Positions 4,412 to 63,600 of a DNA stretch of 64,000 nt are shown one piece after another; the stretch's first letter is position 1; each line of letters opens with the position of its first letter. Made by a program: the position numbers and the translations under genes. Origin of the DNA: Asterias amurensis (taxonomy: Eukaryota; Echinodermata; Asteroidea; Forcipulatida; Asteriidae); contig NC_092660.1 in the NCBI RefSeq assembly GCF_032118995.1, positions 19,082,501 through 19,146,500 on the forward strand, read 5' to 3'. The notes below the pieces were generated by a model that was not told the origin of the DNA, made no database searches, and saw only the letters and a list, made by a program, of their open reading frames with translations.

Positions 4412-7400
4412 ATGGTGAGTATTGAGGACATAGAAACAGGACCAGTCACTTCATTGCCAGGATTAGTAGAGCAGAGTTGGCTGACTTGTTTTTGTACTTG
4501 CAACACAAATGTCTGTCGTCACCAAACAACTGATTTTTTATAATATCAATCAATATCATTTATCAACAAATAGTTTGTTGGACCACCAGCATCCCTGTTG
4601 TTTTTGTTTTTTCGGTTTTTTGTTCATTTTTCGGAAAAGTTTCCGTATGGCGCCACCACTTTTTCATTCGATATAAAATAATATAGGAACTTATTTACCT
4701 GATTGATATATCCCTTTTTGTAAAAATGAGTGAAAAAGTGGTGGCGCCATACGGAAAGTTATCCCATTTTTCTGTCAGATAGTCATAGTTGTATGTTTAC
4801 TCGCGTCTATAGGCCCCTACTGACTCATAAACTTGTGCTGAGTGCAGATGATGCAGTAATTGCGTAAATAGCAGAAAGAATGTTTGTTGACAGCCGGGCA
4901 GGGGTACAGGGGTCGATTTCACAAAGAGTTAGGACTAGTCCTAACTTAGGACTAGTCCTAGGAGATATACAAATTGCATGGGTAGTCCTAAGTTAGGACG
5001 AGGGATAACTTTCCGTATGGCGCCACCACTTTTTCACTCATTTTTACAAAAAGGGATACCTCATTGAGGTAAATTAGATACTATATTATTTCATTTCGAA
5101 TGAAAAAGTGGTGGCGCCATACGGAAACTTTTCCAGGACGAGTAACTGGTCCTAATTCGAGATAAGACTAGTCCTAACTCTTTGTGAAATCCACCCCAGA
5201 TCCCTTGAATCATCACAAACCCTGAAAAAGTCCCCTCACCATGCTCACTGCTGAGGTCAATAAATAGTTACGATCACAGAGGATAGAGGTTTGAGGGTTA
5301 TGATTATAGCAATAACAATCCAGACGATACTTGTTTACATCAATATTTTGCAATTACTTAATAATAATATTACATTAAGTGTGGTTTACCCTTACACCGA
5401 TGTGTGTTAGCACTGTATACTCGGTACTTTCCAGAGTTCTGTGTAGCGAGAGCCAGTTCAAATAGATGCTTTAGCAGCAGGTAGTGAAACATCTTCAACA
5501 TCTATTCAATTATATTATAGTTATCCCTCTTTTTTCTTCTCTTTTTTTTTTAGTCTGACAGGAAAGCTGTCAACCGCTACTACCCGCCAGACTTTGATCC
5601 AAACAAACATGGGTCAATCAACAAGTATCGCAACTCCCACCCTCTTCGGGAACGGGCCAAGAGACTCAGCGAGGGAATCCTGGTCATCCGCTTTGAGATG
5701 CCGTACAACATCTGGTGTGGGGGATGTGGCAAACACATTGGCATGGGTAAGAAATAAGGATTGGTCCACAACTTAGAGGTTTCTATTCTCTATTCATAAA
5801 TACCCAAGACAGTTTCGCTACTCCTAATTGTGGATAGGGCTTCACGTGGGGATGTTTAAACAGTTGATAATGACCAGCTGGAGCTGTTTATAACCGTCTG
5901 GGTTCCGCGTGTCGGGCGCACAAGCTCATGTACGCCAATTTTATTATGCGGAACGTAATTCATAGCTATAAGTGACAGCGCGTAATCTATTTCTTAACGC
6001 ATGTACACACAATATGCGCAACATATGCGCAACAAACATTTTTTTACAAAGTTTTTGAAAAAGTATGTACAAACCTCGAATTTACGATTGTCAAAGTGTC
6101 TAAAATTTTAACTTTTTACATGGTTTTTTTTTTACAAAAGGGCATTTACATGTATGAATGGGAGTAAAAGAGTAGTGACTAGTTCTTAAACGTCGTTTAA
6201 AACCTTGGCAGTGGCAATGTGATAAAGGCACTCGCCGATCACATGACCACAACCATGCCGGTTTTAAACGGCTGTTTAAGGACTCGTCGCTTTTATTCCC
6301 TTAGTAAAGGGCCTCAATACAATCTGATGGGCAGAGTGTAGGTCGTGGCACTTGTCTCTTTGAGCAAGATACTTTCTACAATTGCTTTGTCCTCTGGATG
6401 GGGCATAAGGCATTAGGTCCCATGTACTCAGAGCCAAAAACACTCATCAGGGACGAGCAGGGGTGTTTTTGGTTCTCATAGCAAGCACCCTTGTGTAAAG
6501 GTTTCCTCAGGCTTGTGAACTACAGTTCACTTACATGTACATGTATGAGGCATTTTTGTTTTCATTACCAGAAATATATCATCATCATAATTTAATAATA
6601 GAAAAGAGGAATATTTCTTTTTGAGTTGGTTGATAACTAGGAAGAAAAATAGTTGATCTGTGGAGTTAAAAGTATTTTGTGGTAACGGCATCTTTTCTCC
6701 TTGGGGAAGAGATTAATATCAACATGCACTTGTGCTTTTCCAACATTCATACTTTGTCAACAAAACTAATTTAAATTTTTAATAACATTGATGTAACTTT
6801 CAGAAATTGTGAAAATAATTTCAAATTTTTGCATTTATTTTGCATAAGTTGGCGAGTATTAATACATTTTTCTTCTTGATGTTCCTGCAGGTGTGCGCTA
6901 TAACGCAGAGAAGACGAAAGTGGGGAACTACTACACCACCCCGATTTATCGATTCAGGATGAAGTGCCATCTGTGTGACCATTACTTTGAGATGGAAACA
7001 AACCCGATGGAGTGTGACTACTCTATCGTGACGGGGGCCACTCGCAAAAACCAGAAATGGGACATGGCTGAGAACGAGCAGGTTCTAACAGAAGGTTGGT
7101 CTCATTGCAGTATATTAAGTTTCTGCGCAGTGGACACTTATGATAAAAACTTACTTGGTAATGAGCAATGGAAAGCTGTTGATATTATACTATGAATATG
7201 ATAGTATTAGAACACTTTGTGAGAAACGACTCCCACCTGAAAGCCCAAAAATTTGTGCAACAATTATGTTTTTCTTTCATTATTCTCTTGCTTCTTCGAT
7301 AACCAATTGATTCAAAATTGTCACAGATTTTTCATTTTTTGCATATATATGTTGGGATACACCAAGTGAGAATACCGGTCTTTCTGCCAAAGGTGTCCAG

Positions 7401-13872: not shown

Positions 13873-14108
13873 GTTTGTGATAACACCATGTAATGAGTAT
13901 CTCTAAATGAGTTGGGGTTGTTCTGAAAAGAACCTTTGGTTTCAAAACGACATTTCGATCAGTATGCTCTGATCGTCTTTTTTTTTCTTCTCCAGAAGAT
14001 GATCAGAGCATACTGATCGAAAAGTAGAGTTGAAACCAACGGTTCTTTTCAGAACCACCCCAACACTATTAGAGATAGTCATTACATAGTGTTACCGCAA
14101 ACCTTTCC
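13873..14108. mobile_element. Foldback element with GATCAGAGCATACTGATC centre
   Basis: An almost complete hairpin: GGTTCTTTTCAGAACC words, GTTGGTTTC/GAAACCAAC and ATCAGTATGCTCTGATC arms mirror about 13990. One-arm copies lie at 15325-15430 and 19910-20000. Confidence 0.65.
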
Positions 14109-17054: not shown

Positions 17055-20000
17055 TCATGAGGGTTCCCCCTGCCCAGACTCGATGAGGAAGTCACTGAAG
17101 GCTGCTTGGATTTCAGCATCTAATTCGTCCAGATCGTCGGCATAACTGCGGACAAAATACAAATACTTACAATTTTTCAGGCGCTGGACACGTTTGGTAA
17201 TTGTCAAAGATCAATATTCTCATTTGGTGTTTCCCAACATAGGCATAAAGTAAGTAATCTGAGAAAATATGGGCTCAGTTGGTCATCGAAGTTGCAAGGA
17301 AATAATGCAAGAAAACATCCTTGTTGCACAACAAATGTGTGTGCTTTCAGTTGCCTAAAGATAGGTTTCAGGCCTAAGGTCTTTCTCAGATTCCAATATT
17401 TTCGGTGGGAAATTACCTCTTTCTCAAAAACTATATGTTACCTCAGAGGGAGCCGGTTCTCACAATGTTTAATACTATCAACAGCTCTCCATTGCTTGTT
17501 AACAAGTAAGTTTTTATGCTAGTACAGTATATATTTCAAGTAATTACCAAACGTGTCAAGGGCCTTTAATGCTGACCTTTTTTCATGGCTCTTATTTGGG
17601 GTGGAAATCAAACCAGACCAAAGAACTCGTTGCTCAAAAAGTTGAATGGCCAAAAATTGTTTTTAAAAGACCAGGGGTGGATTTTCGCGAAGATTTAGGA
17701 CTAGTCCTAACTTAGGATTAGTCCTAGGGGATATTGAAAAAATTAAGGCTAGTCCTAAGTTAAGTAACTTGTCTTAACTCAAGATAAGACTAGTCTGAAC
17801 TCTTTGTGAAATCCACCCCTGATATTTGAACAAGCAGCGCTAAAAGATAAGATTCATCTCTTGTGTCTTCATATGTACCATCAATAGAATTGGAAGGTGT
17901 TAATCGGACTCAAGCATTTGGGCCTAACTTGGTTTTTTGAGGGTGACTTACTCAAGCCCTTCATTGGTGTCTGGTTGATAATGGCTCGGATCCAAGTCGT
18001 AATCAGCGTAGGGATCTACTGCAGATTCGTCGTAATAGGTGTAGTTGTCATACTCCGCATCTAACTCATCACCAAAACCTACCAGGTCAAATAATATTAG
18101 AAACTATTAAGCCCGGTTCATACTTCCTGTGAATGCGAATGCGAAGCGAATTTGACCTGAATTTGACGTCACAACTATCCTTTCGCAGTAATACTCGCAA
18201 GTGAGTTGACCAGAGCTGAACTGCTGCAAAATTCGTTGCGAATTTTGTGACGTCAACATTCGCTTCGCATTCGCAGGAAGTATGAACCGGGCTTTAGGCT
18301 TGGGGGAAAAAACAAAGCTGCCAACATTTGCATCATGCAATTAGGAACATTTTATACAACAATAAGTTAACATAATTAGGGGCAAATTGATCATAGTCTA
18401 GGAGACTTTCCAATTTGTTCATCAGAACGTGCAAAGATTGGTTTATGTTCAGGGAACTTTATGCAGCATCAGGGAGAGTTGGCAGCTTTTCAGGTTCCAG
18501 CTGTGTCTATTTACTTTCTCCATATTTTAATTACTCTTTGAATACTTTTTACCTTCGTAAAATTCATACTTTTCTCTAGATCCTAGATACATCTGTTGGA
18601 TACCAAACTATTCATTGCAATATCGCATCCCCCTATGAGACTTATTTCATTCAATATTTTTATTTTATTTTATACAACATCCAACAGCGCAAGCGCCAAT
18701 TACAGGGCGGATAAAAATGTTAATATTAAACATTATTCAATATTTCTAACCGTACCTGCTTCTGCAGCGGTGATAACTTGACCTTGGTTATTGTAGAAGA
18801 CTGGCTCATTCTGTTGAGAGAAGAATGGGACTTGAGTAAAAATTGTTAACTGTCCCCCAATCGTTGAACAATCTTTTCCAATGTCTTGACACCTGTGTCC
18901 TTAAGCAAGAAACTTTACAATAGACCCTTCCCATGAAATCTGTAAATTGCACAAAGCGCGCGCGCACTAACGTTTTGGTTGGCAAAATGAGGGAACATCG
19001 CGCTGTTTTGTACACGGCTAATGGGTGCGTGACGCAGACGCGATTGCGGGTCTGCTTAGTGCACAACTCTTTGGCGTTTGCCAACCAACAGAGTCTGTAC
19101 GCATGCATGAGTGTAATTAGCATATTTCATGGGAAGGGTCCATTGTTGCTGTGTCCTTCCAATGGGACATAGGTCGTGTTTGTTGTGTAATGCACATAAA
19201 AAGGAACCCAGTTACACTTCAGGTGAAATTTTTTTGCGGTAGTGTTGTTTCTGAGAAGAACCGGTGGTTGACAACTCAACATTTCGATTGGTGTAATAAT
19301 AGTAATAATAATAAAGACATTTATTAAAACCTCCAAACTAACTCAATCTTTTGAATAGACTCACAGTGAACTCAGCTGTAGATGGTGGTGCATCTCCTCC
19401 CGCTGCCATGTAGACATTACCACTAGCTACATCAGGTGGACCTAAACTACTGTTGTTGTACTTCACTTCCGCTTGACCCCACTTGGCCCCTCGCAGCTCA
19501 AACAGCTGCAACCACAGCGCACGGATGCCCCTTGGAAAACAATTATTTTGATACATTTAGAGTGTTGGTTCGAGTCCCAGTCGTGACACCCGTGTCCTAA
19601 AGCAAGACACTTAACCACGATGCTTCGTCCTTGAGATGGGGCGTAAACCCGTTGGTCATGTGTGTTGTGTAATGCACGTAAAAGAACCTGGTACACTTTA
19701 TCGAAAAGAGAAGGAGGTTCGCCGTGGTGTTCCTGGTTGGATTGGCAGCATATTGTGCCATAGCACCTTGTAAACAATAACTTGGTGCTATAACAGGATT
19801 AGATCCAATATCGAATGTCTTTCCGTGAATAGACTTGAGCCTTGGCCATAAAACATGGCCCGTAATCATCCAAAGTGTAAAGTAGGATTTGAAACTTTGC
19901 ATGGTGGAAATACGATATGGAAAGGTTTGCGGTAACACCATGTAATGACTATCTTTAATGAGTTGGGGTGGTTCTGAAAAGAACCGTTGGTTTCAACTCT

Positions 20001-24783: not shown

Positions 24784-24915
24784 GGATAACTTTCCGTATG
24801 GTGCCACCATTTTTTCACTCATTTTTACAAAAAGGGATATCTCATTGAGGTTAATTTGATACTATATTATTTCATATCGAATGAAAAAGTGGTGGCGCCA
24901 CACGGAAACTTTTCC
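24784..24915 (+). mobile_element. 132-bp MITE upstream of PAIP1
   Basis: Same length and asymmetric ends (GGATAAC... / ...GGAAACTTTTCC) as the other three copies. No matching 8-bp flanks, so the target duplication has decayed or was lost. It lies about 850 nt upstream of the PAIP1 ATG. Confidence 0.8.
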
Positions 24916-36300: not shown

Positions 36301-36529
36301 TTTGAGCAAACCTTTCTTTCAACAGAAATTAAAACGTTTTCAAAGTTGAATGAGAATTGTTTTTTTAAAAGGAACAAGCAAAATTAAATGTGTATACTTT
36401 GTAATAGTTAAAATGGGCAATCGATACTTAAACTAAAAAATCTGGAAATGGTATAATTGCACCTGGCCAATTGAATCTATTATTAATGTATTAATTATTC
36501 TGCTGTCTACAATAGGGACCCTTTTTAGG

Positions 36530-36805
36530 GTAGACAGAAAAGGAGACCCAGTAGAGGACGTACGTCATGGACTTTGGTCGTGTGAATAAAACATTGTATG
36601 CATAGTTCATGTTTGATGACGGGGGTTAGGGTTAGGGTTAGGGTTAGGGTTAGGGTTAGGGTAAGGGTTAGGGTTAGGGTTGCCTAGATTTCGATTTGAC
36701 ATCTGACCCCGACATCAAACATGAATTATGCATACAAAAAGTACAATGTTCACACGACCAAAGTCCATGACGTACGTCCTCTACTGGGTCTCCTTTTCCG
36801 TCTAC
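36530..36805. mobile_element. Inverted-repeat element carrying TTAGGG repeats, Mutator-like target duplication
   Basis: Terminal repeats GTAGAC(A/G)GAAAAGGAGACC and onward match for 57 nt with one mismatch, then continue with small gaps to about 95 nt. Immediate flanks carry an 11-bp duplication CCCTTTTTAGG (36519-36529 and 36806-36816), in the 9-11 bp range of Mutator-like elements. No coding capacity, so non-autonomous. Confidence 0.8.
36626..36679 (+). repeat. Interstitial telomere-type array (TTAGGG)9
   Basis: Nine hexamers, the seventh being TAAGGG. It sits between the arms of the element at 36530-36805, not at a chromosome end. Confidence 0.95.
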
Positions 36806-36819
36806 CCCTTTTTAGGTGG

Positions 36820-51102: not shown

Positions 51103-54100
51103 TGAATTGTGTAGTTCCCATTGACTTGTGTATGGTTGTGTAGTTTCCCATTGACTTGTGTATGGTTGTGTAGTTTCCCATTGACTTATGTATGGTTGTG
51201 TAGTTTCCCATTGACTTGTGTATGGTTGTGTAGTTTTCCGTTGACTTGTGGATGGTTGTGTAGTTTCCCATTGACTTGTGTATGGTTGTGAAGTGTCCCA
51301 TTGACTTGTGTATGGTTGTGTAGTTTCCCATTGACTTGTGTATGGTTGTGTAGTTTCCCATTGACTTGTGTATGGTTGTGTAGTTTCCCATTGACTTGTG
51401 TATGGTTGTGTAGTTTCCCATTGACTTGTGTATGGTTGTGTAGTTTCCAATTGCATTGTGTATGGTTGTGTAGTTTCCTATTGACTTGTGTATAGTTGTG
51501 TAGTTTCCCATTGACATGTGTATGGTTGTGAAGTGTCCCATTGACTAGTGTATGGATGTGTAGTTTCCCATTGACTTGTGTATGGTTGTGTAGTTTCCCA
51601 TTGACTTGTGTATGGTTGTGTAGATTCGCATTGCATTGTGTATGGTTGTGTAGTTTCCTATTGACTTGTGTATGGTTGTGTAGTTTCCCATTGACTTGTG
51701 TATGGTTGTGAAGCGTCCCATTGACATGTGTATGGTTGTGCAGTTTCCCTTTGACTTGTGTATGGTTGTGTAGTTTCCCGTTGACTTGTGTATGGTTGTG
51801 TAGTTTCCCATTGACATGTGTATGGTTGTGAAGTGTCCCATTGACTAGTGTATGGATGTGTAGTTTCCCATTGACTTGTGTATGGTTGTGTAGTTTCCCA
51901 TTGACTAGTGTATGGTTGTGTAGTTTCCCATTGACTTGTGTATGGTTGTGAAGCGTCCCATTGACATGTGTATGTTTGTGCAGTTTCCCAATGACTTGTG
52001 TATGGTTGTGTAGTTTCCCGTTGACTTGTGAATGGTTGTGTAGTTTCCCATTGCATTGTGTATTGTTGTGTAGTTTCCCATTGACTTGTGTATGGTTGTG
52101 TAGTTTCCCATTGACTTGTGTATGGTTGTGTAGTTTCCCATTGACTTGTGTATGGTTGTGTAGTTTCCCATTGACTTGTGTATGGTTGTGAAGTTCCCCA
52201 TTGACTTGTGTATGGTTGTGTAGTTTCCCATTGACTTGTGTATGGTTGTGTAGTTTCCCGTTGACTTGTGTATGGTTATGTAGTTTCCAATTGACTTGTG
52301 TATGGTTGTGTAGTTTCCCATTGACTTGTGTATGGTTGTGTAGTTTCCCATTGACTTGTGTATGGTTGTGTAGTTTCCAATTGCATTGTGTATGGTCGTG
52401 TAGTTTCCTATTGACTTGTGTATGGTTGTGTAGTTTCCCATTGACATGTGTATGGTTGTAAAATGTCCCATTGACTTGTGTATGGATGTGTAGTTTCCCA
52501 TTGACTTGTGTATGGTTGTGTAGTTTCCCATTGACTTGTGTATGGTTGTGTAGTTTCGCATTGCATTGTGTATGGTTGTGTAGTTTCCCATTGACTTGTG
52601 TATGGTTGTGTAGTTTCCCATTGACTTGTGTATGGTTGTGAAGCGTCCCATTGACTTGTGTATGGTTGTGCAGTTTCCCTTTGACTTGTGTATGGTTGTG
52701 TAGTTTCCCGTTGACTTGTGTATGGTTGTGAAGCGTCCCATTGACTTGTGTATGGTTGTGCAGTTTCCCTTTGACTTGTGTATGGTTGTGTAGTTTCCCG
52801 TTGACTTGTGTATGGTTGTGTAGTTTCCCATTGCATTGTGAATGGTTGTGTAGTTTCCCATTGACTTGTGTATGGTTGTGTAGTTTCCCAATGACTTGTG
52901 TATGGTTGTGTAGTTTCCCATTGACATGTGTATGTTTGTGCAGTTTCCCAATGACTTGTGTATGGTTGTGTAGTTTCCCGTTGACTTGTGAATGGTTGTG
53001 TAGTTTCCCATTGCATTGTGTATGGTTGTGTAGTTTCCCATTGACTTGTGTATGGTTGTGTAGTTTTCCGTTGACTTGTGGATGGTTGTGTAGTTTCCCA
53101 TTGACTTGTGTATGGTTGTGAAGTGCCCCATTGACTTGTGTATGGTTGTGCAGTTTCCCTTTGACTTGTGTATGGTTGTGTAGTTTCCCGTTGACTTGTG
53201 TATGGTTGTGTAGTTTCCCATTGACTTGTGTATGGTTGTGTAGTTTCCCATTGACTTGTGTATGGTTGTGAAGCGTCCCATTGACTTGTGTATGGTTGTG
53301 CAGTTTCCCTTTGACTTGTGTATGGTTGTGTAGTTTCCCGTTGACTTGTGTATGGTTGTGTAGTTTCCCATTGACTTGTGTATGGTTGTGTAGTTTCCCA
53401 TTGACTTGTGTATGGTTGTGAAATGTCCCATTGACTTGTGTATGGTTGTGTAGTTTCCCATTGACTTGTGTATGGTTGTGTAGTTTCCCATTGACTTGTG
53501 TATGGTTGTGTAGTTTCCCATTGACTTGTGTATGGTTGTGTAGTTTCCCATTGACTTGTGTATGGTTGTGTAGTTCCCCATTGACTTGTGTATGGTTGTG
53601 TAGTTTCCCATTGACTTGTGTATGGTTGTGTAGTTTCCCGTTGACTTGTGTATGGTTGTGTACTTTCCCATTGACTTGTGTATGGTTGTGTACTTTCCCA
53701 TTGCATTGTGTAGGGTTGTGTAGTTTCCCATTGACTTGTGTATGGTAGTGTAGTTTCCCATTGACTTGTGTATGGGTGTGTAGTTTCCCATTGACTTGTG
53801 TAGGGTTGTGTAGTTTCCCATTGCATTGTGTATGGTTGTGTAGTTTCCCGTTGACTTGTGTATGGTTGTGTAGTTTCCCATTGACTTGTGTATGGTTGTG
53901 TAGTTTCCCATTGACTTGTGTATGGTTGTCTAGTTTCCCATTGACTTGTGTATGGTTGTGCAGTTTCCCATTGACTTGTGTATGGTTGTGTAGTTTCCCG
54001 TTGACTTGTGTATGGTTGTGTAGTTTCCCATTGACTTGTGTATGGTTGTGTAGTTTCCCATTGACTTGTGTATGGTTGTGAAGTGTCCCATTGACTTGTG

Positions 54101-56972
54101 TATGGTTGTGTAGTTTCCCATTGACTTGTGTATGGTTGTGTAGTTTCCCATTGACTTGTGTATGGTTGTGTAGTTTCCCATTGACTTGTGTATGGTTGTG
54201 TAGTTTCCCATTGACTTGTGTATGGTTGTGTAGTTCCCCATTGACTTGTGTATGGTTGTGTAGTTTCCCATTGACTTGTGTATGGTTGTGTAGTTTCCCA
54301 TTGACTTGTGTATGGTTGTGTAGTTTCCCATTGACTTGTGTATGGTTGTGTAGTTTCCCATTGACTTGTGTATGGTTGTGTAGTTCCCCATTGACTTGTG
54401 TATGGTTGTGTAGTTTCCCATTGACTTGTGTATGGTTGTGTAGTTTCCCATTGACTTGTGTATGGTTGTGTAGTTTCCCAATGACTTGTGTATGGTTGTG
54501 TAGTTTCCCATTGACTTGTGTATGGTTGTGTAGTTTCCCATTGACTTGTGTATGGTAGTGTAGTTTCCCATTGACTTGTGTATGGTTGTGTAGTTTCCCA
54601 TTGACTTGTGTATGGTAGTGTAGTTTCCCATTGACTTGTGTATGGTTGTGTAGTTTCCCATTGACTTGTGTATGGTTGTGAAGTGTCCCATTGACTTGTG
54701 TATGGTTGTGTAGTTTCCCATTGACTTGTGTATGGTTGTGTAGTTTCCCATTGACTTGTGTATGGTTGTGTAGTTTCCCATTGACTTGTGTATGGTTGTG
54801 TAGTTTCCCATTGACTTGTGTATGGTTGTGTAGTTCCCCATTGACTTGTGTATGGTTGTGTAGTTTCCCATTGACTTGTGTATGGTTGTGTAGTTTCCCA
54901 TTGACTTGTGTATGGTTGTGTAGTTTCCCATTGACTTGTGTATGGTTGTGTAGTTTCCCATTGACTTGTGTATGGTTGTGTAGTTCCCCATTGACTTGTG
55001 TATGGTTGTGTAGTTTCCCATTGACTTGTGTATGGTTGTGTAGTTTCCCATTGACTTGTGTATGGTTGTGTAGTTTCCCAATGACTTGTGTATGGTTGTG
55101 TAGTTTCCCATTGACTTGTGTATGGTTGTGTAGTTTCCCATTGACTTGTGTATGGTAGTGTAGTTTCCCATTGACTTGTGTATGGGTGTGTAGTTTCCCA
55201 TTGACTTGTGTAGGGTTGTGTAGTTTCCCATTGCATTGAGTATGGTTGTGTAGTTTCCCGTTGACTTGTGTATGGTTGTGTAGTTTCCCATTGACTTGTG
55301 TATGGTTGTGTAGTTTCCCATTGACTTGTGTATGGTTGTGAAGTGTCCAATTGACTTGTGTATGGTTGTGCAGTTTCCCTTTGACTTGTGTATGGTTGTG
55401 TAGTTTCCCGTTGACTTGTGTATGGTTGTGTAGTTTCCCATTGACTTGTGTATGGTTGTGTAGTTTCCCATTGACTTGTGTACGGTTGTGAAGCGTCCCA
55501 TTGACTTGTGTATGGTTGTGTAGTTTCCCATTGACTTGTGTATGGTTGTGTAGTTTCCCATTGACTTGTGTATGGTTGTGCAGTTTCCCATTGACTTGTG
55601 TATGGTTGTGTAGTTTCCCGTTGACTTGTGTATGGTTGTGTAGTTTCCCATTGACTTGTGTATGGTTGTGTAGTTTCCCATTGACTTGTGTATGGTTGTG
55701 AAGTGTCCCATTGACTTGTGTATGGTTGTGCAGTTTCCCTTTGACTTGTGTATGGTTGTGTAGTTTCCCGTTGACTTGTGTATGGTTGTGTAGTTTCCCA
55801 TTGACTTGTGTATGGTTGTGTAGTTTCCCATTGACTTGTGTACGGTTGTGAAGCGTCCCATTGACTTGTGTATGGTTGTGTAGTTTCCCATTGACTTGTG
55901 TATGGTTGTGTAGTTTCCCATTGACTTGTGTATGGTTGTGCAGTTTCCCATTGACTTGTGTATGGTTGTGTAGTTTCCCGTTGACTTGTGTATGGTTGTG
56001 TAGTTTCCCATTGACTTGTGTATGGTTGTGTAGTTTCCCATTGACTTGTGTATGGTTGTGTAGTTCCCCATTGACTTGTGTATGGTTGTGTAGTTTCCCA
56101 TTGACTTGTGTATGGTTGTGTAGTTTCCCATTGACTTGTGTATGGTTGTGTAGTTTCCCATTGACTTGTGTATGGTTGTGTAGTTTCCCATTGACTTGTG
56201 TATGGTTGTGTAGTTTCCCATTGACTTGTGTATGGTTGTGTAGTTTCCCATTGACTTGTGTATGGTTGTGTAGTTTCCCATTGACTTGTGTATGGTTGTG
56301 TAGTTTCCCATTGACTTGTGTATGGTTATGTAGTTTCCCATTGACTTGTGTATGGTTGTGTAGCTTCCCATTGACTTGTGTATGGTTGTGTAGTTTCCCA
56401 TTGACTTGTGTATGGTTGTGTAGTTTCCTATTGACTTGTGTATGGTTGTGTAGTTTCCCATTGACTTGTGTATGGTTGTGAACTGCCCATTGACTTGTGT
56501 ATGGTTGTGCTGTTTCCCTTTGACTTGTGTATGGTTGTGTAGTTTCCCGTTGACTTGTGTATGGTTGTGTAGTTTCCTATTGACTTGTGTATGGTTGTGT
56601 AGTTTCCCATTGACTTGTGTATGGTTGTGTAGTTTCCCATTGCGTTGTGTATGGTTGTGTAGTTTCCAATTGACTTGTGTATGGTTGTGTAGTTTCCCAT
56701 TGACTTGTGTATGGTTGTGTAGTTTCCCATTGACTTGTGTATGGTTGTGTAGTTTCCCATTGACTTGTGTATGGTTGTGTAGTTTCCCATTGACTTGTGT
56801 ATGGTTGTGTAGTTTCCCATTGACTTGTGTATGGTTGTGTAGTTCCCCATTGACTTGTGTATGGTTGTGTAGTTTCCCATTGACTTGTGTATGGTTGTGT
56901 AGTTTCCCATTGACTTGTGTCTGGTTGTGTAGTTTCCCATTAACTTGAGTTGCGTACGGTTGTGTAGTTAAT
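51103..56972. repeat. 30-bp minisatellite, about 195 units, with higher-order structure
   Basis: The unit is TTGACTTGTGTATGGTTGTG + TAGTTTCCCA, about 73% G+T on the plus strand. Most units differ by 0-3 bases. Length is fixed at 30 nt until about 56485, where a one-base loss shifts register. The same stretches of variants recur: 54061-54540 equals 54661-55140 (600-bp shift, 20 units) and 55351-55650 nearly equals 55711-56010 (360-bp shift, 12 units). Because 30 is divisible by 3 and the unit lacks stops, three minus frames and one plus frame stay open for hundreds of codons; these are judged noncoding. Confidence 0.97.
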
Positions 56973-60650: not shown

Positions 60651-63600
60651 ATGAGTTGTTTAAAGTGCTTGTTGTTTTGTGTTATTGCTGTATCACTCTC
60701 AAGGGCTGACGTTTTCTTTGAAGACCAATTTGATGGTAAGTAAGATGTTTTTAATTGTTAACATTTTTATGATTAAGTTCCTCCATATTTATTTTATGTG
60801 TTCAAAAAAATCCTGAGATTTTGTTTTGGACTCAAATCTTTATGAAAGAGCTTTTCTATGATTAGTTGTAGATAATGAAGGAAAAGTTTCCGTATGGCGC
60901 CACCACTTTTTCATTCGAAATAAAATAATATAGTATCTAATTTACCTGATTGATATATCCCTTTTTGTAAAAATGAGTGAAAAGGTGGTGGCGCCATACG
61001 GAAAGTTATCCATAATGAATTATGTGCTAAATAAGAATAAGATGCTACCATGGCTACTCCATGACTTCTCCAACCTATATTTTTTGGGGGTAGGGCGGCA
61101 GTCATGATGATGGTTTTTATTCAGTATTTTCTAGTGGAAAAACTTATGCAGTCGGATTCCTCATCTTTTTCCTGTTTTCTGTTCACTTCCTTCTTCTCCC
61201 AACCCCCTGTGCATACATCTCTGCCTGCTTCCTATTCTATAAATTTCATTGTTTGATTTAAAACTTTAAGTGATTGAGCAATTGATTATGAATTAGTGAG
61301 ATAGTTAGCAGTTAGGACAGGTCCTTCCAACTCAACCATCTGACTCCATCTGATCAATCGAGTGACCAACCCTGTGCTGAAGTTGAGTGTTTGGCCAGTT
61401 TTTGTGGAGAGATTTTTTTATTTTTTTATTTCTTTTTTTTTTGGGGGGGGGGGGGCCAGGTGCAAAAATTTAACCTTCCAAGTTCCAATCTGAATCTCCT
61501 CTTGACTGTCGGGAGGATTGGTCTTGAAGATTTATCGCAACATGGGAGGGGGGGGGGTACTCTTAGAACTATCCTGCGGTTCCATTCCGCTATCGTCTCC
61601 ATGAATGTAAGCCCCCTTTTCCTTCCCAAATGCCTTTCGACAATTGAGAAAAATCAGCTAGGCGGGAATCGCAATAAAGGTGTATGGTAACTTCTAGTTG
61701 TGGCATATCGTTGTTAATTAAAGGGTGTGGCCACTGTGTATTTTTCAATTTTTTTTCCATTTTATTATTATACAATTTAAGTGTATCAAATAGAACCTGG
61801 TCTTCACACAATTGATATGTTGTACTTTGTATGGCAAGGCAATATAAACACAATATAATAACCAAACTCAACTATAAAGAAATTCAATATTTTTCTTCAT
61901 TGAATAAACCATTAGTCAGCTGGGGGCATTGGCACTGAGGTCAATATGCAAAAATATGTAAATTTAAATATTTATTATGTAATTTTTTTTTAATAGACTG
62001 TTCTACAGTAGCAGAGCCTGCCAACTCTCTATGCTTCTGCATGCAGTTCTTGAACATAAACCAATCTTTCCATGCTCTAATGAACAAATCGGACAAATTT
62101 ATTGTGTACAATTGGTTGAAAATTATGCGTTGCGGCGCGTAAATCTCACGTTTTGGCCAGATACTCAAGCTCCTGCATGGGGAGATCCCTGCAGTATGCC
62201 TTATTCTGTTCACACCCTTTCCTTTTTTACAATGTCCAACAGGTGACTGGGAGGACAGATGGGTGAACTCTGAACATAGAGATGGACTAGGAAAATTCAA
62301 ATTGACAGCTGGAAAGTTTTTCAATGACGCTGAGAAAGACAAAGGTGAGTTCCTGTCTGTTTGTGCCTGCGAGTAAACGAAACCTCATAAAAAAACACTT
62401 TGTGTTCTCAATTTTCATATAAAAATATTGAAACCATTTCCACTGTAAAGTCATGTACAAACAGCAGTCCTACATTGTTGTGTCACAGGTTTTGAACTTC
62501 ACTCTTGAAGGGGGCACAGCAATTTTGTCCTCTGGTAAGGGCGCTTTTATGGGGAAAATGTAAATTTGTAGTGGAACTTTCTTGCAGAGGGCACCATCGC
62601 AAAAGCACTGGGCATCATTGTGGATGCCGTGGGTTATACAGGGTGTCCATATTAACCAATGGCTGTAAAACAGAATCAACTAAGGTTCCACTTGTATTAT
62701 TTTAATCAAAAAGAAGAACACGGATAAAACTGAATTCTCCTGGGTGTCTTGCTTGTATGGTAATCATTTGTTTGCAGAATTTGTCTGAAAACACAAAATT
62801 TTACTACAAAAGGTTGAGTGTGCAACACAGGATTAATTGTGCACTCGCAAACTCAAGCTACTAGACTATAGGAAATCCAACCATAAGCTACTGTCTCCAT
62901 ATTGAATCCGATTATAATAATTAGGATTCTGATGTGCCTGTAATAAAAAGATAGCAATATAAATTATGGCTGGGATTATTACCATGGTAACATGTCGCTG
63001 CTTTCTCTTCGAAGGAAAAATCAATACTAACGTCTTTGTATGGTATTTCATGTTAATAGGTTCAAACAGTATTCACAGCTGCCGACTTTTTCCTGAAAAA
63101 AAAAACACCCCCAATCTTTCCATGGTCTGATGGACAAATTAAAATATCTCCTTGATGGTGGAAACCTTTCCCCTGTTATCTTGAATGTCATTCTAAGTAT
63201 GTTCCCTGATTACCAATGATTGCAAATAATATGACAGATCTGACTGTTTGTTGAGTAGTACATTACAAGCTCTTAAAGGGAAGGTACACGTTTGGTAATT
63301 GTCAAAGACCAATCTTCTCACTTGGTGTATCCCATCATAACCATAAAATAACAAGCCTGTGTTTATTTGGGCTCAATCGATCATCGAAGTTGCGAGAAAA
63401 AACACCCATATTGGACGCATTTGTGTGCTTTCAGATAAGAATAAACTAGAAGTCTTTTATTATTTTAGTGAGAAATTACCCCTTTCTCAAAAAAGTTGTT
63501 TTCCACAATGTTTTAGACTATCAACAGCTCTCCAATGCTCGTTACCAAGTCAGTTTTTAAGTTAATATTTGTTTTGAGTAATTACCTAACGTGTACCTTC

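Follow-up and report, generated by a model that had tools for sequence, protein, structure and literature searches.

Runs of TTAGGG inside chromosomes are often taken for scars of chromosome fusion. In the window, the 64,000-nucleotide stretch of Asterias amurensis DNA analysed here, one such array lies in the loop of a transposon-like inverted repeat, which raises the question of whether a mobile element is carrying telomere sequence to interior sites or whether the array has a purely local origin.

Structure of the element and its copies in the genome

The element occupies 278 bp, a shorter extent than the 36519..36816 proposed in the first-pass annotation. Its parts are listed below in window coordinates, with + denoting the TTAGGG strand; the types of copy are described in the next section.

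36529..36806, + strand: whole element, 278 bp, type A (copy L002)
36520..36528, no strand: left 9-bp target-site duplication, CCTTTTTAG
36529..36586, + strand: outer part of the left terminal inverted repeat, 58 nt, beginning with GGTAGACAG
36594..36624, + strand: left inner arm, truncated (judged against type C copies) at GACGGGG, where the array starts
36623..36681, + strand: telomere-type array, eight TTAGGG and one TAAGGG
36682..36706, - strand: spacer GCCTAGATTTCGATTTGACATCTGA, the deep inner arm retained on one side only, common to the other type A copies
36707..36737, - strand: right inner arm
36749..36806, - strand: outer part of the right terminal inverted repeat, 58 nt, one mismatch
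36807..36815, no strand: right 9-bp target-site duplication, CCTTTTTAG

The inverted arms (59 nt, 98% complementary, one mismatch) bear out the near-identical terminal repeats noticed at first, and they enclose a further pair of arms, 31 nt long and matching at 94%. The strand folds back with a z-score of -19.8, none of 200 shuffles being equally stable. Nine telomere-type hexamers had been read in the loop; the array is present, but only eight of its units are exact, the other being TAAGGG, and Tandem Repeats Finder counts 9.8 GGGTTA units. The longest stop-free run is 51 codons, hence the element carries no transposase; short, bounded by terminal inverted repeats and devoid of a transposase, it has the composition of a MITE or foldback element. 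A BLAST search of the element against the window found no second copy there.

An exact 11-bp repeat, CCCTTTTTAGG, does flank the element, as had been claimed, but the target duplication is of 9 bp. A duplication of 11 bp is ruled out by the family-wide value, and the apparent length arises because the outer bases of the repeat overlap the GG...CC ends of the element. The background of 11-bp matches spaced 200-400 apart in the window is 4.8e-6 per position pair, many of these matches being true repeats. Just outside the left end, at 36503-36510, there is an inverted copy of the element end, CTGTCTAC; 8-mers like it, in either orientation, number only three in the window.

The arm is repeated in the genome, as the first-pass annotation had anticipated: a genome-wide search scored 40 arm matches among 45 candidates, and the terminus pattern (at most 2 mismatches) found 53 matches versus 2 with a reversed control. 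The family amounts to about 30 places on 14 contigs of the 491-Mb genome, once three terminus hits with 2 mismatches (C2:21497842, C3:16987143 and C5:21327569) are excluded and the second arms of copies already counted (L021, L009, L011, L025, L026, L028, L029 and L031) are set aside. These places are 22 two-ended copies, three one-ended copies with interior sequence (L023, L027 and L030, with one terminus only) and five solo ends (L062-L066), the last two groups lying outside the two-ended count. The family ends are GG...CC, with termini GGTAGACGGAAAAGG, and the host flanks differ between copies (sequences compared as printed, without mutual alignment).

With copy ends picked by terminus sequence alone, exact 9-bp duplications directly outside GG...CC were found in 11 of the 22 two-ended copies, rising to 15 when one mismatch is allowed, while the flanks of the remaining seven differ at two or more positions. 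A shifted-flank control gave no exact duplication, and a single one with up to one mismatch, in 2,244. Duplications of constant length at several dispersed copies are what is expected of a MITE or foldback family. The fold z-score, the target duplications and the genome-wide copies together rule out a chance palindrome. Outside this genome, no copy was found among viral and prokaryote contigs scanned for pieces of the arm, nor did plasmid records match the element; an exact 19-mer in a rumen bacterium MAG was taken as a chance match.

Four of the solo ends (L062, L063, L065 and L066) keep the first 41-48 nt of the right end of the element and then diverge, L062 and L063 being alike past the shared segment. 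This hints at a true inverted terminus of about 45 nt that is common to other elements.

Array types and the origin of the array

A telomere-type array is found inside the loop in 18 of the 22 two-ended copies. In 17 of them there are at least three pure TTAGGG in a row (range, 3 to 15), and the eighteenth, L003, has a degenerate array. The four array-free copies are the full palindromes L015, L016 and L020 and the short form L024. Among one-ended copies, L027 and L030 have arrays and L023 a degenerate remnant. Other copies thus carry the same loop, with target duplications and telomere units in further copies, and the arm is not unique; the proposal that a non-autonomous transposon spreads interior TTAGGG therefore holds. 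We consider it very probable that the window feature is one copy of a MITE-like family carrying (TTAGGG)n at its palindrome tip as cargo.

Two array-bearing types can be told apart. Type A includes L002 (the window copy), L003, L004 and L005, as well as the one-ended L027 and L030; here the array is flanked by ...GTCGGGG and TTGCCTCGATTTCG... (in L002 by GACGGGG and GCCTAG instead), with one deep inner arm absent and the other retained. Type B, with 14 copies, has the array mostly after ...GAGGCAAAG and mostly before AATGACCTGACC, and its right half is partly different. In the array-free form, type C, the palindrome runs across the array region. With the same long inner arm taken as the starting point, the array reads CCCTAA in type A but TTAGGG in type B. 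Several contigs (e.g., C1, C4, C5 and C13, the last of which holds the window) have TTAGGG arrays at their ends, which shows that the hexamer is the telomere repeat of this assembly. One type B copy, L067, has largely GGGGTT-like units beside six TTAGGG and an exact 9-bp duplication.

We suggest that the array was gained at least twice within the family, which best accounts for the opposite orientations and different junctions of types A and B, although a single acquisition followed by rearrangement may have given both orientations. Judging from the junctions, the acquisitions would have taken place at the hairpin tip, or close to it, in a palindromic form that had no array; this tip perhaps broke and was then healed with telomere repeats. 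A transposase supplied in trans would move the element by cut-and-paste, planting the array at new interior sites, and the length of the array would afterwards drift through replication slippage.

The lengths and purity of the arrays were compared in 13 type B copies, with L067 omitted since its array is largely GGGGTT-like. The pure run varies from 3 to 15 units, while 12 of the 13 copies retain the right junction AATGACC and 11 the left junction CAAAG. Substitutions affect 1 of 528 array bases versus 70 of 2,639 arm bases, a count that favors purity, given that arrays were trimmed at the first and last exact unit and variant edge units in L012 and L013 were omitted. P0121, a protein record whose source is an ENA contig 12,169 bases long, matches locus L005 over residues 17-107 with 96.7% identity. 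As residues 54-107 are host flank of L005, this is the L005 insertion in a record of another assembly, which rules it out as an additional locus and adds no copy. Its TLTLTP motif implies about 3 units versus 8 in L005, so that array length changes without a new insertion. The change in place is consistent with replication slippage.

Slippage also lies behind a rival account, namely that the array was never telomeric but is a microsatellite grown from a GGGTTAG seed, itself mutated from GGGTCAG of the arm, its match to the telomere repeat being due to chance. The type A left junction, GTCGGGGGTTAG, nearly equals GTCGGGTCAG of the array-free copies, and the arrays vary in length although their junctions are mostly constant, a difference also seen between two records of one site; as an explanation of the arrays, slippage from such a seed is nearly as good as telomerase. 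The type A junctions share with the array-free form GGG at one edge and TT at the opposite one, which is expected for microhomology repair, but a seed grown by slippage would look similar. Against this origin, the exact telomere hexamer occurs in two types, at different positions and in opposite orientations, which makes it less likely that this hexamer grew by chance on two occasions, and we regard such an origin as unlikely overall.

That a local break at the window locus was healed with telomere repeats, the inverted repeat being incidental, is highly improbable: short interstitial telomere sequences are described as products of break repair that appear suddenly, not as products of slippage (PMC7215372), and some interior arrays, such as L083 and L086, have flanks unlike those of the other 19 sampled loci, but the array of the window copy, far from standing alone at a unique site, is inside a repeated mobile element, at internal positions that recur in many copies, found at different places and flanked by 9-bp duplications, which already contradicts local repair for this copy. 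Break repair may have been the original source of the array, prior to its spread with the mobile family.

Superfamily of the element

The GG ends and 9-bp duplications fit either Merlin or Mutator. The first-pass annotation had called the element Mutator-like and non-autonomous; the second term stands, but the first is not supported, considering that the same ends and duplications also fit Merlin. Membership in Mutator is a tentative possibility. The 9-bp duplications and long palindromic arms match that superfamily without being specific to it, and most foldbacks seem to belong there (according to the passage used from PMC4079207), while PMC8101967 counts GG termini and 8-9-bp duplications among the hallmarks of Merlin.

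We place Merlin membership among the more doubtful possibilities. It agrees with the GG...CC ends, the 9-bp duplications and an arm length within the published 24-462 bp (the range in the portion of PMC8101967 cited), and Merlin-domain (DDE_Tnp_IS1595) matches occur at six places in the genome, four of which have open frames longer than 300 codons. Speaking against it, none of five of these six loci, with about 1.6 kb on each side, has ends like GGTAGACGGAAAAG, and three of the five are one element of about 2.5 kb, in copies 98.9-99.4% identical, with other ends, GGAAAAAT and GGATAATC. A 7-base likeness, GTCTACC, in three Merlin loci proved internal to that element and not terminal. At five one-ended places, no partner end was found within 10 kb (5/5), and no transposase was recognised by eye in their listed frames; hence, no autonomous copy sharing the element termini was found among these five places and the five Merlin loci.

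The window also contains four copies of a second MITE family, 132 bp long, with ends GGAAAAGT and GGATAACT and exact 8-bp duplications at each of the three copies covered by the duplication scan:

4633-4764, 5003-5134, 24784-24915 and 60880-61011: copies of the 132-bp MITE

The ends of this second family resemble those of the 2.5-kb Merlin element, and it may be Merlin-derived.

Interior telomere-type arrays, related systems and surroundings

To place the family among the interior arrays of the genome, we used an array-start pattern of at least three units, which matched 110 places; the figures that follow come from the 100 listed. Because the pattern demands that GGG be preceded by a base other than A, arrays that follow an A are missed, several family copies among them. 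Of the listed places, 24 are within 100 kb of a recognisable contig end (right ends being recognisable on 12 contigs only), and the remaining 76 form 50 clusters (gaps of less than 120 kb). A family copy is present in 10 of these 50 listed interior clusters and, by the pattern used, those 10 should not be read as fusion scars. Overall, family copies put TTAGGG at about twenty sites inside chromosomes.

Twenty places outside the family were also sampled, none of which matched the element arm. Four of them lie close to a contig end; the remaining 16, drawn from the 40 clusters that hold no family copy, consist of degenerate repeats, minisatellites or single sites. L072/L073 and L074/L089 are pairs of loci that have shared flanks and appear to be further dispersed repeats with interior TTAGGG runs, one pair by a GTCGCCCCC minisatellite (runs of 12 and 9 units versus 3) and the other by CCCTGTATTCTATAGTTATA.

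Transposition by mobile elements has been named as a possible source of interstitial telomere repeats (in the passage cited from PMC6410037), a suggestion repeated in that cited from PMC7859515. A more general reading of our data is that palindromic MITEs act as traps and carriers of telomere DNA, with repeated breaks at the tip being healed either way and transposition then seeding about one-fifth of the interior arrays (by one pattern). We find this quite conceivable, although short of probable. If true, it would provide a transposon route to interstitial telomeres beside fusion and break repair. The family makes transposon-borne telomere repeats directly readable, since a single genome shows the ends, the duplications, the array and its range of lengths, and its copies are a natural series for how telomere-type arrays lengthen or shorten at interior sites.

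A MITE with a tandem repeat riding in it is known; what is new here is a telomere cargo in two orientations. The lepidopteran (GTCY)n MITEs, Xenopus Xmix/Xstir and miDNA4 likewise combine a short non-autonomous inverted-repeat element with a tandem array (PMC6947457, PMC9659126), but in the sea star the unit is the host telomere hexamer and the array is at the foldback tip, in two opposite orientations. The telomere-bearing elements of Oxytricha (Tc1/mariner) are also DNA transposons with telomere-like repeats, although there G4T4 is in the terminal inverted repeats of elements that encode their own transposase in a ciliate germline (PMC12242761), whereas the sea-star repeats are internal, the element is non-autonomous and the host is an animal. 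The MoTeR telomeric retrotransposons of the blast fungus make interstitial TTAGGG tracts too, but by inserting into telomeres and burying them, while the sea-star element brings the array to interior sites (PMC7367193). Tetris of Drosophila virilis is, like the present family, a non-autonomous foldback with 8-10-bp duplications, internal tandem repeats and, in the account quoted, no autonomous copy found, yet its repeats have been attributed to its own arms and not to a telomere-type unit (PMC4079207). Finally, break-repair interstitial sequences are similarly short interior TTAGGG arrays, but each is a single insertion at a break (PMC7215372, PMC2246262), in contrast to the inherited cargo of a mobile family. 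Among the titles and abstract openings covered, we found no report of a short inverted-repeat transposon with a host TTAGGG array inside.

As for its surroundings, the window element is downstream of UMP-CMP kinase exons, which occupy about 45.6-40.7 kb of the window on its minus strand and whose joined translation is 99% identical to an Asterias amurensis protein. Neighbouring reading frames may, to judge from their translations, belong to BRIX1, PAIP1 and CCDC130. Window positions 51107-56947 are taken up by a minisatellite whose 30-bp unit is present in about 195 copies and in which both strands have long open frames. The histone 3' UTR stem-loop family (RF00032) is matched twice, at 14036-14080 (+) and 19945-19990 (-), with similar sequence downstream of both matches; as an inverted repeat overlaps the first match, a dispersed repeat may include histone mRNA 3' ends.
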